A stretch of 64,000 nucleotides of DNA from Natronomonas salina. GTDB lineage: Archaea; Halobacteriota; Halobacteria; Halobacteriales; Haloarculaceae. The DNA is taken from positions 1,860,001-1,924,000 of the forward strand of contig NZ_CP058335.1 in the NCBI RefSeq assembly GCF_013391105.1, read 5' to 3'. The translations under genes were made by a program, and so were the position numbers. Positions within the stretch are counted from its first letter, which is position 1. Every line of letters starts with the position of its first letter. Positions 5,279-56,290 of the stretch are shown one piece after another. Under the pieces are notes generated by a model, which was given only the letters and a program-made list of their open reading frames with translations, was not told where the DNA came from and searched no databases.

Positions 5279-6361
5279 TCACGGCTCGTAGGCGACGATC
5301 GCGGCGTCGATGCGGCCGTAGGGGATGTCGTAGCGCTCGACGGGCTCCATCGGGAGCAGCTCCGGCTTCGTCGTCAGGGCGACGAACCGGTCGACGTCGC
5401 CCTCCCGCAGCCGGTCGGCGAAGTCCGCGTAGAGCGCCCGGAGGTCCTCGCTGACCCGGATGCCGAACGGGAGGTTCGTGACGACGCAGTCGGCCTCGAC
5501 GGCCGCGGTCCGCGCGTCGGCGTCGACGACCTCGACGGCGTCCTCGAAGCCGGCGGCCTCCAGGTTGACGCGGGCGCAGCGGCGCCACTTCTCGCGGCGG
5601 TCGCGGGCCTCGATGGCGAGGTCCGGCGAGCGCGACTCGTGGGCCGCCCGCCGTTCGCGGAACGCGGCGCCGTCGTAGCGCGGCAGCGCGTCGAGTGCGG
5701 GCTCGAGGTCGGGACGCGGCGGTCGGTCGGTCGCCGCCAGCGCGGCCTCGATGGGGACGGTCGCCGACCCGGCCATCGGGTCGACCAGGCGGTCCTCGGC
5801 CCCGTAGCCCGCGATCCGGAGCATCGAGTACGCCAGCGTCCCGCGCAGCGGCGCGTCGTGCTCGCAGACGCGGTAGGGCCGCCGGTGCAGCGAGTCGCCG
5901 GTCAGGTCGATCGCGAGGGTGAACCGGTCGTCGTAGAGGTACGCCTCCAGCCGCACCGTCGGGTCGTCGAGGTCCACGGGCAGCCGCTCGCCGGTCGCCT
6001 CGCGGTAGCCGTCGATGACCCCCTGGCCGACCCGCTCGGCGACGTCGACGCTCGTGAACTCGTGGCTGCCGTGGCGCGTCCCGACGACGCCGAAGTCCGA
6101 CGAGGGGAGATGAGCCGCCAGGTCAGCCTCGCGGGTCCGGTCGTAGACGTCCTCCAGTTCCTCGACCGGCGCGTCGACGAGCACCTCCATGACCCGGTGG
6201 CAGGTCCGCGAGCGGTAGTGGAGGTCGTAAACGTCCTCGTGGTTCCCGTCGAACTCCACGACGCCGCGGTGGTGGACGGCCGCGTCGAGTCCCAGCAGTT
6301 CGTCGAGCTCGTCGGCCGTCACGGACTCCAGCCCGCCGTTCGTCGTCGCCAAGAGGTGCAC
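5279..6361 (-). CDS. THUMP-domain RNA guanine-N2 methyltransferase
   Basis: A 360-residue tRNA/rRNA methyltransferase of the Trm14/TrmN/RlmL type. The N-terminal half (about 1-150) is a THUMP RNA-binding region. The linker SLHRRPYR...APLRGTLA is typical of the family. The Rossmann methyltransferase has SAM motif I as DPMAGSATVPIEAAL (about 194-208) and motif IV as NLPFG (about 296-300), a variant of the (D/N)PP(Y/F) catalytic motif of N2-guanine enzymes. It would methylate the exocyclic N2 of a guanosine in tRNA. I chose the GTG at 6361. It follows a GGAGG sequence and a TTAT element about 30 nt upstream, and the longer ATG start would absorb that promoter. Confidence 0.88.
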   Translation of the reverse strand: MHLLATTNGGLESVTADELDELLGLDAAVHHRGVVEFDGNHEDVYDLHYRSRTCHRVMEVLVDAPVEELEDVYDRTREADLAAHLPSSDFGVVGTRHGSHEFTSVDVAERVGQGVIDGYREATGERLPVDLDDPTVRLEAYLYDDRFTLAIDLTGDSLHRRPYRVCEHDAPLRGTLAYSMLRIAGYGAEDRLVDPMAGSATVPIEAALAATDRPPRPDLEPALDALPRYDGAAFRERRAAHESRSPDLAIEARDRREKWRRCARVNLEAAGFEDAVEVVDADARTAAVEADCVVTNLPFGIRVSEDLRALYADFADRLREGDVDRFVALTTKPELLPMEPVERYDIPYGRIDAAIVAYEP

Positions 6362-6785
6362 GCCTCCCCCTTGCGCCGGTGGGGAGATAATCCCGGTGTC
6401 CTCGCGCTCACATCGCCCGTCCTGTGCGGCCGTCAACGAGCCGGCCTACCAGTTCTGCCGCGAGTGCGTCGGCGAACTGCAGGACGGCACGCCGACGGTA
6501 CCGGTACAGCTCGCGAGCGATGGGCTAATGTTCCAATTAGTGAACTGTTCTGTAGGACGCTGGTCTGAAGAGTCGTATCCCTGGCTCATTGATGCTTTCA
6601 ACTCCGTCAAAACGACAAGCTCTTTGTCAGACTGTCTAGTCCCACCGCCGATAACTGTGAACATCGCGAGAGCAGATTCAATTCGTAAGTCTTCACCGAA
6701 CTCTACAATTCGAAACGTCCTGGGTACTATTATTGACTCTCGAAATAGTCAAAACCATCGTTAGTAGCCCTTCCCATTGCTAACC
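6362..6785. other. AT-richer intergenic region without a convincing gene
   Basis: About 420 bases with distinctly lower GC than the surroundings. Short open frames on both strands have no recognisable domains and non-haloarchaeal codon use. It holds the promoter of the minus-strand THUMP gene at its left end and presumably that of the small membrane protein at its right end. It may be the remnant of an insertion. Confidence 0.4.
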
Positions 6786-7001
6786 ATGGGGTTTACAGGG
6801 GCAGCCCTGAAGTTCACAGGACTAATTGTGGTTTTGACCACTTTAGGCATGATAATCGAGGGGGACGTAGAAGGAGTAAATCAATCGATGGCCACAATCA
6901 AGGCGATTGTGACGGGGGTTTCTAGTTTGGGTGAAACGACCCTCGGGATTCTGGCAATGGTGGTCTTCCTCGGAGTCCTCTACTACGCAGACGGTTCCTG
7001 A
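6786..7001 (+). CDS. Tiny two-helix membrane protein, unknown
   Basis: A predicted 71-residue protein with two hydrophobic segments (about residues 8-25 and 48-67) joined by a short loop (EGDVEGVNQSMATIK). Codon use is less GC-biased than in neighbours (ttt, att, act, cta), matching the AT-richer region upstream. I chose the ATG at 6786 over an in-frame TTG at 6777. The size and layout recall small membrane proteins of haloarchaeal viruses and integrated elements, but no viral gene is adjacent. Function unknown. Confidence 0.55.
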   Translation: MGFTGAALKFTGLIVVLTTLGMIIEGDVEGVNQSMATIKAIVTGVSSLGETTLGILAMVVFLGVLYYADGS

Positions 7002-7068
7002 GTGCCTGTAGTTGATGTAATGGACTGCCCTCCGACTGGGCGAGTTCTAACTATGGAGGTCGTCATTT

Positions 7069-8055
7069 TCACACCGCCAACAGCCCCACCAGCGCCACCG
7101 CGATCCAGAACACCTTCAGCCCCGTGTTCACCAGGATCACCTTCGTCCCGAATTCGGCGCCCCAGATGCCGTACTGGAACGGGATGGAGCGCTTGAACGT
7201 CGAGACGGTGAAGGAGACGATGCCGCCGACGAGCATCGTCGCGACGGCGGTGCGGGCGGTGAAGACGCCGTCCTCGACCAGCGGCGCGATGGTGACGGCC
7301 CCGCTGGTGGTGTCGAAGGCGAAGACGACGATGACGGGGACGGCGGCCGACGGCAGGCCGGTCAGCGCGGCCAGGGGGTCGGCGGCGCCGCCGGTCAGCG
7401 CCTCCAGGTCGTAGTAGGTCGTCAGCAGTACGACCGCGGTGTAGACGACCGCGAGGCGGGGCAGGATGTCCCGCGTCTTCTCGACGCCGGAGCGGGCCGC
7501 GCCGGCGAGCTTCTCGCGGGTGGACGTGGGCGATTCGCCGCCGTCGGGGCGGGCGTCGGGTTCGAGCTCCGCCATCGCCTCCGGGTCGACGTTCCGCGAG
7601 GAGAGCAGGACGGCGCCGGCGAGGACGCCCGTGGCGGTGATGGCGAGGGCGACGCCGGCGCGGGTGCCGACGTACAGTAGGCCGACCTTCAGCCCGAGGA
7701 TGGGGATCAGGACCGGCGCGTAGAAGGTGAAGATGTGCTGGACGAACCCGAAGAACGTGTTGATGGTGACGGCGACGAGGGTGGCGCGGTCGTCCAGCAG
7801 GCCGGCGTCGCGGTACTCCGCGAGCATGCCGTAGCCGGCGGTCGTCGAGGCCGCGGTGGTGATGATGGCGCCGCCGACCTCGTCCGGCAGGTTGGCGGGG
7901 CCGGTGAGCGGCCGCGAGAGCGCGGCGACGTGGCGGATGACGCCGAAGGCGACCAGCAGGTCGGCGAAGGCGACGCCGCCGGCGATGGCGACCGCGATGG
8001 TGGCCACCCGTGGCAGGACCTCGCCGACGACCAGCGAGACGACGGACGGCTCCAT
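7069..8055 (-). CDS. Nucleoside-recognition (Gate-domain) membrane protein
   Basis: A 328-residue integral membrane protein with about eight hydrophobic segments in two halves. They are separated by a hydrophilic loop (SSRNVDPEAMAELEPDARPD... to EKTRDILPR). The first half contains Gly-rich helices with GAIITTAASTTAGYGMLAEY and NTFFGFVQHIFTFYAP. The second half repeats a related pattern (PVIVVFAFDTTSGAVTIAPLVEDG). This two-fold Gate architecture (PF07670 type) occurs in nucleoside-recognition, spore-maturation SpmA/B and FeoB-related proteins. In haloarchaea it is usually annotated as nucleoside recognition protein, with the transported substrate undetermined. It stands as a single gene. Confidence 0.8.
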   Translation of the reverse strand: MEPSVVSLVVGEVLPRVATIAVAIAGGVAFADLLVAFGVIRHVAALSRPLTGPANLPDEVGGAIITTAASTTAGYGMLAEYRDAGLLDDRATLVAVTINTFFGFVQHIFTFYAPVLIPILGLKVGLLYVGTRAGVALAITATGVLAGAVLLSSRNVDPEAMAELEPDARPDGGESPTSTREKLAGAARSGVEKTRDILPRLAVVYTAVVLLTTYYDLEALTGGAADPLAALTGLPSAAVPVIVVFAFDTTSGAVTIAPLVEDGVFTARTAVATMLVGGIVSFTVSTFKRSIPFQYGIWGAEFGTKVILVNTGLKVFWIAVALVGLLAV

Positions 8056-51623: not shown

Positions 51624-52589
51624 TCACTCCTCGACGGGGACGGTCTCCAGGGCCTCGCTGACGATCGCGTCGGCGTCGTCGGCCCCGGGGTCCGTCTGCA
51701 TCCGGTGGGGGAGGACCACCGACGCCGCCGCCTGCACGTCGTCGGGGACGACGTACGACCGCGAGTCGAGGACGGCCCGGCCCTGCGCGGCGCGGACGAG
51801 CGCGATGGAGCCGCGCGGGCTCGCGCCCAGCCGGGCGTGCTCGCGGGTGTAGGTCGCCAGCCGCGTGACGTACGCCCGGACCGGCTCGCTGACGGCCACG
51901 TCGGCGGTCGTCGCCCGCGCGTCCAGGAGGTCGGCGGCGGTGGCGACCGGCTCGACGTCGTCGATGGCGTGGCCGCCGACCGCTCGGTCGATCACCGTCG
52001 CCTCGTCGGCCTCGTCGGGGTAGCCGAGGTGGAGCTTCAGCATGAAGCGGTCCAGCTCCGCCGCCGGCAGCTCGTAGGTGCGTTCCCGCTCGATGGAGTT
52101 CTGCGTCGCGATGACGATGAACGGGTCCGGCACCGAGTGGGTCGTCCCGTCGACGGTGACCTGCTCTTCCTCCATCGCCTCGAGCAGCGCGGCCTGGGTC
52201 TTCGGCGGCGCCCGGTTGATCTCGTCGCCGAGGACGACGTTGCCGAACACCGGGCCGGGCCGGAACTCGAACTCGCCGCTCTGCTGGTTGTAGACGTTCG
52301 CGCCCGTGATGTCGGCCGGCAGGAGGTCCGGCGTGAACTGCACGCGTTTGAACGAGCAGTCGAAGGACTCCGCGACCGCCCGGGCGAGCATCGTCTTCCC
52401 GACGCCGGGGACGTCCTCCAGGAGGACGTGGCCGCCGCCGAGCAGCGCGGTGACGAGGTGCTCGATGGCCTCGTCGTTGCCGACGATCACCCGCTGGACG
52501 TTGTCGATGACGTCGCGGGCCGTCTCCCCCGCCGCGTCGACGGCGTCCTCGACCGCCGGGGCCGCCGCCTGGTTCGTCGTGTCTGTCAT
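51624..52589 (-). CDS. MoxR-family AAA+ ATPase (module B)
   Basis: A 321-residue AAA+ protein with Walker A EDVPGVGKTMLAR, RVQFTPDLLPADITGANVY, Walker B LGDEINRAPPKTQAALLEAM, sensor VIATQNSIERE and the C-terminal SPRGSIALVRAAQGRAVLDSR lid. It is the first gene of the compact module B operon (MoxR, DUF58, transglutaminase). A TATA-like GCATATC about 27 nt upstream (52613-52619) fits a leaderless start. Confidence 0.92.
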   Translation of the reverse strand: MTDTTNQAAAPAVEDAVDAAGETARDVIDNVQRVIVGNDEAIEHLVTALLGGGHVLLEDVPGVGKTMLARAVAESFDCSFKRVQFTPDLLPADITGANVYNQQSGEFEFRPGPVFGNVVLGDEINRAPPKTQAALLEAMEEEQVTVDGTTHSVPDPFIVIATQNSIERERTYELPAAELDRFMLKLHLGYPDEADEATVIDRAVGGHAIDDVEPVATAADLLDARATTADVAVSEPVRAYVTRLATYTREHARLGASPRGSIALVRAAQGRAVLDSRSYVVPDDVQAAASVVLPHRMQTDPGADDADAIVSEALETVPVEE

Positions 52590-52730
52590 GGAGGGCTTAC
52601 CGCATCCCCGTAGATATGCAACATACGCTTTGTGGTAACTGCACGGTAAGGCCTGTCATTGGTCGTCGAAAGGGTCGGAGCGACGTAAGCACTGCGGGGG
52701 GTGTGACGAGTGAGTGCACGAGCGGTGTCC

Positions 52731-52955
52731 TCAGTAGAGCCTCGATCCGATACGTTCTGCACACTCGTATGCCTCGTCTTCAGTTCCAGCGTCTCCTTTC
52801 GAGATACGTCCGGGAGTGAATTCACGGCCACACCCCTCCGGCTGGAGACAGCTGTAGCGAATCTTCCATCCCGTCGGTTCCTCCTTGAGATCGTACCACA
52901 GCCTCGTCGTGCAGAAGGGACACCGGGCGTCGGGGTGGTGTCGAGCCAAAGTCAC
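52731..52955 (-). CDS. Small zinc-ribbon protein beside the McrBC-like island
   Basis: A predicted 74-residue protein starting at GTG 52955. Cys12, Cys15, Cys36 and Cys42 (RCPFCTTRLWYD...SCLQPEGCGREF) form a zinc-ribbon-like set, and the C-terminus is a charged helix (DEAYECAERIGSRLY). It is divergent from the McrB-like gene and 87 bp away. I do not recognise a family. It may be a regulator or merely a passenger of the same island. Confidence 0.55.
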   Translation of the reverse strand: MTLARHHPDARCPFCTTRLWYDLKEEPTGWKIRYSCLQPEGCGREFTPGRISKGDAGTEDEAYECAERIGSRLY

Positions 52956-53008
52956 ACACGCGCTTGCCCGCGTTATCTTTCATAATCGCTCGTGGCGATT
53001 GGCTGCAT

Positions 53009-53020
53009 AGTTTTATTTCG
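53009..53020 (+). promoter_or_regulatory. TATA-like box for the McrBC-like operon
   Basis: AGTTTTATTTCG is centred 28 nt upstream of ATG 53042, consistent with a leaderless transcript covering both genes. Confidence 0.6.
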
Positions 53021-53041
53021 GCGAGGGGACACTGACGGACG

Positions 53042-54598
53042 ATGGGATACGACGGACCGAAGGTCTTTCTCGCTCCGTACGGCAACGACGCCGCACAGGA
53101 GAATTTCGAGCGAACTGTCGCCGAGGGGGTTCCGGAAAACGAGGTCGCGGCCCACTCCGACGCCTACCCGACGGACGATCCGGTGCGTATGTGGGGAACG
53201 AAGGAAAGCGTCGCTGGAAGCTGGAAAAACGTCGATAGTGGGGATTACCTTCTATTCTATCGTGATGGGACCTACGAGTACGCCGCCAGGGTGATCGACA
53301 CCGAGCGGAACGAATCGCTCGGCCGGACCGTGTGGCCGAACCACGAGGACGGCAAACCGTGGTCCTGCATCATCTATCTCGAACGTCCGATCGAGACGGA
53401 TATCGATTCCGCCGAAGTCCACGACCTGGCCGGGTACGATATCACGTACCCCATGGGGTTCAGTCCCCTGAACGAGATGGGGCTCGGCGGAATACGGGGT
53501 CGGTACGGTTCAGTCGAGAGCTTCGTCTCCGGTGGCGATCCGGTCGACACTGAGGGACATCCGGCTGACGTAGACGAACCCGACGTAACCCGTGAACCCG
53601 CTGTTCGGATTCCGGAGGAGACGCTCGACGACCTCCACTTCCCGAACGGACAGGTAGCAGAAATCATCGAACAGGTCAACTCGGCGCTGAACGCGGGCAA
53701 ACACATCATCTTCACCGGTCCGCCCGGAACCGGGAAGACCGAGATCGCACGCTTGCTCTGCGGACACCTCGTAGGGGAGCACCCCGAGGTATACACCGGC
53801 CATCAGATCACCACGGCGACCGCAGACTGGTCGACGTTCGAGACGGTCGGCGGATACATGCCCGAAGAAGCAGACGGAGACGATCTTACGTTCGAACCTG
53901 GACAGGTCCTCCGTCGGTTCAAGCGGGACGGCATCCAGCGGAACGAACTGCTGGTGATAGACGAGATCAATCGCGCGGACATCGACAAGGCATTCGGCCA
54001 GCTCTTCACCCTCCTGTCCGGCCAGGCAGTCCAGTTACCGTACAAACTCGACGGCGAAGAGATCGAGATCATACCGGCAGCGGAGTTCGATGGCGGTCTC
54101 GCTCCGAATCAGTACGTGGTCCCGTCGTCCTGGCGCATCCTCGCCACGATGAACACGTACGACAAGACCTCGCTGTACGAACTCTCCTACGCGTTCATGC
54201 GCCGATTCGCCTTCGTTCACGTGGCGGCTCCCAACGTGCCGGAAGAGCCCTCGGGACAGATCGAACTGCTCCGCGCGTACGCGAACGTCTGGGATATCGA
54301 CGCCGACGACGAAGAACTACGTGACGTCGGCGAACTCTGGTGGGCGATCAACGCACTCGAGGACGGCCGAAAGATCGGTCCGGCGATCATCCAGGACATC
54401 CTCACCCACGTCGTCGCCTTCGACAACGACAGAGGGGTCGCACTGACGCAAGCCGTTTCGAACTACGTGTTCCCCCAACTGGAGGGTGTCCCGAACCGGG
54501 GTCGCATCGTGTCACGAATCGCCGCCACGAACGCCGTCGACCGGGATCATCTCGACCGGTTGGCTTCAGACGTCCTCGGTGTGAGGGTCGATGGATAG
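53042..54598 (+). CDS. McrB-like AAA+ NTPase with N-terminal reader-like domain
   Basis: A 518-residue motor protein. Residues about 1-165 form a beta-rich domain (GSWKNVDSGDYLLFYRDG, YAARVIDTERNESLGRTVWPN, DITYPMGFSP) whose pattern suggests an EVE/PUA-like modified-base reader. That is inference. The AAA+ domain has Walker A GPPGTGKT (226-233), Walker B LLVIDEINRAD (303-313), the McrB-type loop ATMNTYDKTSLYELSYAF (368-385, with N371-T-x-D374) and Arg387/388. McrB proteins translocate DNA using GTP and recruit the McrC nuclease. Codon use is less GC-biased than in flanking genes. The last 8 bp overlap the nuclease gene. Confidence 0.9.
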   Translation: MGYDGPKVFLAPYGNDAAQENFERTVAEGVPENEVAAHSDAYPTDDPVRMWGTKESVAGSWKNVDSGDYLLFYRDGTYEYAARVIDTERNESLGRTVWPNHEDGKPWSCIIYLERPIETDIDSAEVHDLAGYDITYPMGFSPLNEMGLGGIRGRYGSVESFVSGGDPVDTEGHPADVDEPDVTREPAVRIPEETLDDLHFPNGQVAEIIEQVNSALNAGKHIIFTGPPGTGKTEIARLLCGHLVGEHPEVYTGHQITTATADWSTFETVGGYMPEEADGDDLTFEPGQVLRRFKRDGIQRNELLVIDEINRADIDKAFGQLFTLLSGQAVQLPYKLDGEEIEIIPAAEFDGGLAPNQYVVPSSWRILATMNTYDKTSLYELSYAFMRRFAFVHVAAPNVPEEPSGQIELLRAYANVWDIDADDEELRDVGELWWAINALEDGRKIGPAIIQDILTHVVAFDNDRGVALTQAVSNYVFPQLEGVPNRGRIVSRIAATNAVDRDHLDRLASDVLGVRVDG

Positions 54599-55937
54599 AT
54601 CCGAACTCGTCGCAGGACTCTCCCAGGACATCCTGACGTACGTGATGCACGGTTCGTTCCCCGAGCAACACGTCGCCCAGGAGATCAAACCGGCCGGGCT
54701 TGACGAGCGATTCGACGACTACGAATCGCTCGTCGGACTCCACTTCGTACTGAAACCCGAGGTCGTCGAGTTCGTCGAGCAACTCCCGCAACGTCTCAGG
54801 AACGTCAAGACCCAGACCGAGCGGGTTACGACCGTCTCTCGTGGCCACGTCAACGGTCGAATCAACTGGTCGGCGACAATGAAGAAGCGCTATTCGACGA
54901 ATCCCCGCGACAGTTCCCTGTTCGTCTGCGACGACCGGACCGAGAGCTACGATATCGCCGAGAACGTAGTCCTGAAGCAGCTACTCTCGGTTATCTACCG
55001 AACGCTCGAGGACTGTCAAGAGTACCTCAGGGCCGACTACCAATGGGTGACGGACCGCTGGCACGAAAACCTAGAGCTGATCGAGGAGATGCAGCGCATC
55101 TTCGAACGGAACGTCCACGTCAAACGGATTCGAGAGCCGGAGGAGTACGAACCGACCGAACGGATGCTGCAGCGAGCCGAAGAGGCTCGAACCGACGTCT
55201 ACACCGAGGCTGCGAGGTTGCTCCGTTCGTACCGGAAGACCCTGGCGGGCGACGCTGACGCTATCACCGAACTCCTCGACGAGACCACGATAACTCCGGA
55301 CGACGAGGAGACGCTGCTCGAACTGTACGTTCTCTTCAGGTTCGTCTCCACGATCGAATCGCTGCAGGGCGACACGTTCTCTCTGTCGACGATAGCCTCC
55401 GATTCGCAGGAAGTCGCCAGGATGGCGGACGGGGACACGGAAATCGCGCTCTATCACGATAACTCGGCCAAAGATCGAGGCCTGTCGTTCGTCTCGGAGG
55501 ACTACGGAAAGGAGCGTGACGAACTTACACGGACCGAGATGGTCCAGCGAGAGACCCGGGAGGTGGTCTCGTCTTACTTCAAGGACGAAGAGTTCCGCCA
55601 AACGACGGGCCGTCCGGACGTGATCGTCCTCGAAATCGACGCGGCCGACCGACAGGAGTACCTCATCACTGAAGTGAAGAACTCCACGCAACCTCAAACC
55701 ATCCGGAGCGGAGTCAAAGAGACCCTCGAGTACCTCGCGTTCCTTCGAAGTGACGAGGAGTTCGTCTTCGACCAAGAAACCGAGTACACCGGGTCCGGCT
55801 GGAACGGGCTGCTAGTCATCCAAGATGTGGAAGACTCCGAGACAGCGTCACTGGAAGAACAGCGCTCAATTCGAATCCTTCAGGCTTCCGAGGTGGAGAA
55901 TCGGCTCCGAGAGGTTCTGGAGAGCGTAATCCGATAA
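54591..55937 (+). CDS. McrC-like nuclease (DUF2357-like plus PD-(D/E)XK)
   Basis: A 448-residue partner of the McrB-like motor. The N-terminal and middle regions resemble DUF2357: RGHVNGRINWSATMKKR (84-100), AENVVLKQLL (124-133), a helical region with charged heptad-like stretches (about 155-215), LYVLFRFVSTI (245-255) and EIALYHDNSAKDRGLSFV. The C-terminal endonuclease motif is RPDVIVLEID with Asp343, then LITEVKNS with Glu361 and Lys363 (D...ExK), then a helix. It should cut DNA. ATG 54591 lies inside the last codons of the motor gene, so the two are coupled. It is not the standard E. coli McrC. Confidence 0.85.
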   Translation: MDRSELVAGLSQDILTYVMHGSFPEQHVAQEIKPAGLDERFDDYESLVGLHFVLKPEVVEFVEQLPQRLRNVKTQTERVTTVSRGHVNGRINWSATMKKRYSTNPRDSSLFVCDDRTESYDIAENVVLKQLLSVIYRTLEDCQEYLRADYQWVTDRWHENLELIEEMQRIFERNVHVKRIREPEEYEPTERMLQRAEEARTDVYTEAARLLRSYRKTLAGDADAITELLDETTITPDDEETLLELYVLFRFVSTIESLQGDTFSLSTIASDSQEVARMADGDTEIALYHDNSAKDRGLSFVSEDYGKERDELTRTEMVQRETREVVSSYFKDEEFRQTTGRPDVIVLEIDAADRQEYLITEVKNSTQPQTIRSGVKETLEYLAFLRSDEEFVFDQETEYTGSGWNGLLVIQDVEDSETASLEEQRSIRILQASEVENRLREVLESVIR

Positions 55938-56062
55938 TCATCGGGACGATGCGCCACTAATCAAGAGTCACGAGGCATCGTCACTACTCGAATTCTATCT
56001 GGTCTCTGGACCGGCAGACGTACCCATCGCTCACCGTCGTAATAAACCGCGAAAGTTAGTAG

Positions 56063-56078
56063 GTCGCCAGAAGGCGAC
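56063..56078 (-). terminator. Short hairpin downstream of the cold-shock gene
   Basis: GTCGCC and GGCGAC pair around a 4-base loop, 18 nt past the cspA stop on the minus strand. A pyrimidine-containing stretch (CTACTAACTTTCG) follows. A modest stem, so only a candidate. Confidence 0.35.
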
Positions 56079-56095
56079 GTGTTCTTCGGAAGGAC

Positions 56096-56290
56096 TTACG
56101 AGCGGACGAGGTTCGTCGCGCGCGGGCCCTTGTCTGCCTCTTCGATCTCGAACTCGACTTCGGTCCCCTCTTCGAGGTCCGGGCCGCCGACGTCCTCCAT
56201 GTGGAAGAACACGTCTTCGTCCGCGTCGTCAGTCTCGATGAATCCGTAACCGCCTGTGTCGTTGAAGAAATCAACCTTTCCGCTTGCCAT
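56096..56290 (-). CDS. cspA: Cold-shock domain protein
   Basis: A 64-residue single cold-shock domain with RNP-1-like GGYGFIET and RNP-2-like VFFHMEDV, starting MASGKVDFFNDT and ending GPRATNLVRS. It binds single-stranded RNA/DNA and acts as an RNA chaperone. It lies directly downstream of the McrBC-like island and marks the return to normal composition. A strong TATA-like box precedes it. Confidence 0.95.
   Translation of the reverse strand: MASGKVDFFNDTGGYGFIETDDADEDVFFHMEDVGGPDLEEGTEVEFEIEEADKGPRATNLVRS

Follow-up and report, generated by a model that had tools for sequence, protein, structure and literature searches.

A three-gene McrBC-like cassette with a YTH-like reader domain in Natronomonas salina, probably a modification-dependent restriction system

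In the McrBC system of Thermococcus gammatolerans, McrB (TgMcrB) has been described as a YTH-McrB fusion (PMC12707154), its N-terminal domain has been reported to bind 6mA DNA (PMC12707154; PMC7641849), and the published structure gives residues E357, N359, N410, D413, R425 and R426 a part in catalysis (PMC7680126). The McrBC system of Escherichia coli K-12 pairs a motor with a PD-(D/E)xK protein in two genes, and its McrB reads methylcytosine through a DUF3578 domain. In the EVE-McrB systems a reader of the EVE superfamily is fused to the McrB motor (PMC7641849), and the CoCoNuTs are McrB/McrC derivatives, some of them YTH-like (PMC11090510). The locus described here resembles T. gammatolerans McrBC in its YTH-like N-terminal domain, in its AAA+ motor with an NxxD loop and paired arginines, and in a separate nuclease gene with a McrC-like predicted fold. 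It differs from that system in an extra, divergent zinc-ribbon gene, in the loop itself (MNTYDKTS, compared with the cited MNxxDRS) and in a nuclease whose sequence shows no detectable resemblance to TgMcrC (fold alignments give 10-13% identity). With E. coli McrBC it shares the two-gene arrangement of motor and PD-(D/E)xK protein, and E. coli McrC (6hz4_M) is the best fold match of the nuclease model, but the cassette has a YTH-like reader, and its nuclease, unlike E. coli McrC, is missed by profiles. Several relatives carry a Pfam EVE domain, as in the EVE-McrB systems, whereas the protein studied here has no Pfam EVE match and stands nearer to the YTH-like domain of TgMcrB. The cassette lacks the NxD motif, the coiled coils and the RNA-linked domains of the CoCoNuTs.

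The analysis covered a window of 64,000 nucleotides (the whole stretch of DNA, from contig NZ_CP058335.1), in which the following features were located, with positions counted from the first letter of the window:

52704-56094, no strand: island, from the moxR upstream region to the cspA 3' end; 59% GC, missing in some congeners
52731-52955, minus strand: zinc-ribbon protein of 74 aa with a GTG start codon, its gene oriented divergently to that of the AAA+ protein
52956-53041, no strand: intergenic region of 86 bp between the divergent zinc-ribbon and AAA+ genes
53011-53018: TATA-like TTTTATTT, about 27 nt 5' of the AAA+ ATG, read directly and kept in two congeners; putative promoter
53042-54598, plus strand: McrB-like ORF of 518 aa, YTH-like reader domain and AAA+ motor
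53042-53551, plus strand: YTH/EVE-like N-terminal domain, residues 1-170, with a profile match to TgMcrB-NTD
53717-53737, plus strand: Walker A, G226-K232 (GPPGTGK)
53960-53974, plus strand: Walker B and the DEINR that follows it, D307-R311
54152-54163, plus strand: NxxD loop, N371-TY-D374
54200-54205, plus strand: arginine pair R387/R388
54591-55937, plus strand: ORF of the McrC-like nuclease subunit, 448 aa, unmatched in sequence-family libraries
55614-55619, plus strand: P342-D343 of the PD-(D/E)xK site
55671-55679, plus strand: E361-V-K363 of the PD-(D/E)xK site

Both long ORFs, with their 8-bp overlap, lie where a preliminary description of this DNA had placed them, and the low GC content noted there was recovered: 0.611 for the AAA+ ORF and 0.584 for the nuclease ORF, about three standard deviations under the remaining long ORFs of the window (0.701 +/- 0.037), with 0.594 for the block 52705-56095. 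For the shift in codon use claimed alongside, GC3 over mechanical ORFs was uninformative. Two statements needed correction. The island had been started at 52590, but about 52590-52703 belongs to the region upstream of moxR and can be aligned with relatives in which the island is absent; and what had been taken for a two-gene system includes a third conserved gene that had been overlooked, the one at 52731-52955 on the minus strand. A further stretch of low GC, about 0.58-0.60 within surroundings of 70% GC, lies at 6001-7500 of the window.

The AAA+ protein matches McrB, both in NCBIfam (PRK11331, E 1e-13) and among PDB chains (E 1.6e-15, and 3.5e-13 for E. coli McrB). It combines an AAA+ core with the NxxD consensus loop N371-T-Y-D374 in place of sensor I, DEIN (D307-N310) after Walker B, and the paired trans arginines R387/R388. 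In the alignment to T. gammatolerans McrB every mappable catalytic residue is present: E308 and N310 correspond to E357 and N359, N371 and D374 to N410 and D413, and R387 and R388 to R425 (sensor II) and R426 (arginine finger). These six residues are invariant across 59 aligned AAA+ homologues; in Walker A, G226-G229, G231 and K232 are invariant and T230 nearly so.

For the N-terminal region, a profile of 15 homologues returned TgMcrB-NTD (6P0F) as its top PDB match (E 4.8e-5), spanning profile positions 42-170, nearly the entire domain, and its significant PDB matches were TgMcrB sequences only. W51, W61, Y73 and W98 are conserved in the reader domain, as candidates only for an aromatic cage. 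Since this N-terminus is YTH-like, m6A, and not 5mC, would be the leading target. Type I m6A methyltransferases were found in 5 of the 28 YTH-type hosts and in 110 of 363 other genomes (p = 0.20), which is no significant depletion and makes the targeting of any m6A doubtful; their presence together with a YTH-type system in five genomes argues against an attack on m6A in every context.

The partner protein carries a PD-(D/E)xK site. P342-D343, followed in the model by strand E344-351, and E361 and K363 are invariant in 67 sequences. The catalytic residues of the preliminary description (N371/D374 in the motor and D343/E361/K363 here) were all confirmed as placed. Searches with the nuclease against Pfam, NCBIfam, PADLOC and PDB sequences gave no significant match. 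Its AlphaFold2 model is moderate (pLDDT 75.5, pTM 0.59), and a fold search with it gave three PDB matches with E no higher than 0.001, each of them a McrC chain (6hz4_M at 4.3e-5, 6ut6_G and 6ut7_G) with a probability of 0.99-1.00; 6ut5_G came next at 0.005. The TM-scores of the McrC matches are low (0.2-0.3). The three matches point to the McrC arrangement of a finger domain with a PD-(D/E)xK domain; given the low TM-scores and the moderate model, they strongly support kinship, not superposition of the whole nuclease. Sequence profiles gave a different answer. Comparison of the full nuclease profile with 30 haloarchaeal PF10117 McrCs failed, at an hhalign probability of 0.2%; the finger region alone aligned over 56 columns at a low 24%, and a haloarchaeal DUF2357 protein aligned with the nuclease at two short motifs only. 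PF10117/DUF2357 profiles produced weak matches (E 0.02-0.03) in 1-2 of the 67 relatives and none was found for PF10117 in the organism's own genome. Membership of PF10117/DUF2357 was rejected, as the protein itself has no profile match and because of the 0.2% in hhalign; of the earlier DUF2357-like/PD-(D/E)XK assignment, the catalytic residues stand and the DUF2357 label, by sequence profiles, does not. Position 250 (R/K/Q in the family pattern) precedes the nuclease domain, and its alignment to TgMcrC R263, the Arg/Lys position through which McrB is activated, is unreliable. On the predicted structure, the order of the motifs and the gene context, the nuclease is thus McrC-like, a remote relative of McrC by predicted fold that is invisible to profile searches.

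The zinc-ribbon protein is the third conserved gene of the YTH-type systems. Its C12, C15 and C36 are invariant and C42 nearly so, and comparison with Pfam did not assign it convincingly to a family, Lar appearing in a single member at E 0.075. All 27 YTH-type genomes in which the contigs are intact have a zinc-ribbon gene no more than 4.4 kb from that of the nuclease; in the 28th (G073) the contig breaks, and the gene stands at its end, facing that of the AAA+ protein. Homologues down to 29% identity keep the same position in the YTH-type clade; at one locus (L049) the gene instead follows directly downstream of that of the nuclease. Next to systems that have a different reader the gene was looked for and not found. 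Two outlying YTH-like members (L076, L091) are without it, and its association may therefore be with the lineage and not with the domain. Copies elsewhere lie no more than a few kilobases from Type IIG or Type I restriction genes at at least seven loci. Its product probably serves the YTH-type lineage as an accessory protein or a regulator. Around such Type IIG/Type I genes the family was seen in small gene clusters (L194-L201, L203, L209), some of which hold SWIM-like proteins, as judged by eye.

Of 391 sampled haloarchaeal genomes, 131 carry relatives of the nuclease, and among named genomes that were scanned there were further ones in Nanohaloarchaea, Pacearchaeota, Aenigmatarchaeota, Zixibacteria, Planctomycetota and Bacillota; canonical PF10117 McrC was found in 59 of 194 haloarchaea. 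Twenty-five plasmid records match, in which the nuclease, where annotated, is a 'hypothetical protein', in some of them with an ATPase of the 'AAA family' or the 'MoxR family' next to it, and a search of phage records gave no match. Motor and nuclease are strictly paired. Their genes are on the same strand in 95 of 95 non-redundant systems and adjoin or overlap in 94 (a 186-bp gap separates them in one), and the correlation between AAA and nuclease distances is 0.92, where 500 permutations gave no value above 0.13. The N-terminal module is swapped among relatives: Pfam on 72 sampled AAA+ N-termini identified EVE in 16, MrcB_N in 11, HVO_A0261_N in 9, MTaX1 in 3 and DpnI_C in 2, and the tree of the nucleases shows at least 17 changes of module label. 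The N-terminus of the AAA+ protein is a swappable set of modified-base readers (EVE, MrcB_N, DpnI_C, YTH-like), and a fixed motor-nuclease unit with interchangeable readers of modified DNA is our main argument for modification-dependent restriction. A nanohaloarchaeal protein (L152) has MrcB_N and a YTH-like domain fused before the same motor, giving two readers per protein; the same genome as the window holds a second, very divergent pair (L052, G000:C1:1636000-1652000; AAA+ 713 aa, nuclease 488 aa, 26% identity); and Natronococcus contains scattered C-terminal nuclease fragments of about residues 290-445 (L051:11503-11991, L073, L075, G264 contig C3), some of them short ORFs near a full-length copy.

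The synteny check for an empty MoxR-cspA site, suggested in the preliminary description, confirmed the island. The empty site of one congener (G391) aligns with window positions 52576-52703 and 56095-56140, and the flanks in G391 are 93% and 99% identical to those of N. gomsonensis (G392), where the site is filled, so that the comparison is between close relatives. The same-site island occurs in N. gomsonensis and in G288, with proteins 73-77% identical; G391, G393 and G399 have no system at the moxR-cspA site, and unrelated inserts occupy it in G310, G394, G395 and G389. Filled, empty and otherwise filled congeners indicate that this site is a variable spot of Natronomonas. The claim of horizontal acquisition is supported as regards an island with empty counterparts, but not as a recent gain by this strain alone: two congeners carry the island at the same site, and it is older than the strain. 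Other occupants of the site in congeners, named by reading their translations, are DUF433/DUF5615-type-looking pairs (L034, with traces in L038 and L040) and a ribbon-helix-helix plus RelE-like pair (L036); L041 and L042 have unrelated small genes there.

We conclude, with a probability of about 0.8, that the cassette is a McrBC-like, modification-dependent restriction system of a Natronomonas species. The motifs, the fold resemblance, the strict pairing, the swapping of readers and the empty and filled sites were established by computation, and the type IV, McrBC-like reading of the preliminary description is sustained by the McrB motifs, by significant fold matches to McrC only, by the reader-bearing relatives and by the empty sites of congeners. 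In such a system the McrB-like protein would probably assemble into an AAA+ ring, with its YTH-like domain binding a modified base of incoming DNA, most likely N6-methyladenine. The finger domain of the McrC-like protein would insert into this ring and stimulate NTP hydrolysis, possibly of GTP, and translocation, and its PD-(D/E)xK domain would then cut the DNA. More tentatively, and with the odds somewhat against it, the cassette may belong to a distinct, undescribed McrBC-like branch with a profile-invisible nuclease, whose YTH-type lineage is a three-gene system with the zinc ribbon as a working subunit, for example in motor control or as a guard against host m6A.

Other explanations must be weighed against modification-dependent restriction. 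LlaJI employs a McrB-related NTPase and a nuclease against unmodified DNA (PMC12707154), and haloarchaea are rich in methyltransferases; on a reading of this kind the N-terminal domain would recognize an unmodified site while a cognate methyltransferase protects the host. We consider this unlikely, as the island has three genes only and, as would be expected of a type IV system, none of them is a methyltransferase, and several relatives bear known modified-base reader domains. Somewhat less probable still is a MoxR-like chaperone ATPase and partner with a cellular function instead of defence. The 'MoxR family ATPase' annotation of some plasmid copies and the high rank of NorQ (MoxR-type) structures in the fold search with the AAA+ part are in its favour, as is the lowered fitness of Thermococcus kodakarensis after deletions of archaeal McrBC (PMC13385129), but the sequence match is to McrB, the distribution is patchy and partly plasmid-borne, the partner has an invariant nuclease site and the reader domains are swapped among relatives.

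An RNA-targeting McrBC derivative of the CoCoNuT kind comes lower again in our estimation. Type I CoCoNuTs have YTH-like domains and could read m6A in RNA, but CoCoNuTs are characterized by the NxD motif, coiled coils and RNA-binding/RNase domains and are nearly absent in archaea (PMC11090510), whereas the cassette shows no additional domains and has an intact PD-(D/E)xK site; membership was rejected on the GTPase motif, which is NxxD rather than NxD. That the locus is a decaying, inactive remnant seems the least probable of all: some relatives elsewhere are split or in fragments, but here the mapped catalytic residues are all intact, and changes relative to N. gomsonensis fall mostly at the third codon position (by position, 91/66/242 in the AAA+ gene, 75/39/218 in the nuclease gene and 23/20/38 in the zinc-ribbon gene, that is, 38 of 81 for the last).

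The nuclease family of the cassette is present in roughly one in three of the haloarchaeal genomes sampled and yet is missed by defence-finding profiles, and its recognition would enlarge the archaeal restriction repertoire by a large branch. The family may help to explain why methylated plasmids transform some haloarchaea poorly, and it offers a natural series of exchangeable modified-base readers on one motor, together with a small zinc-ribbon gene.
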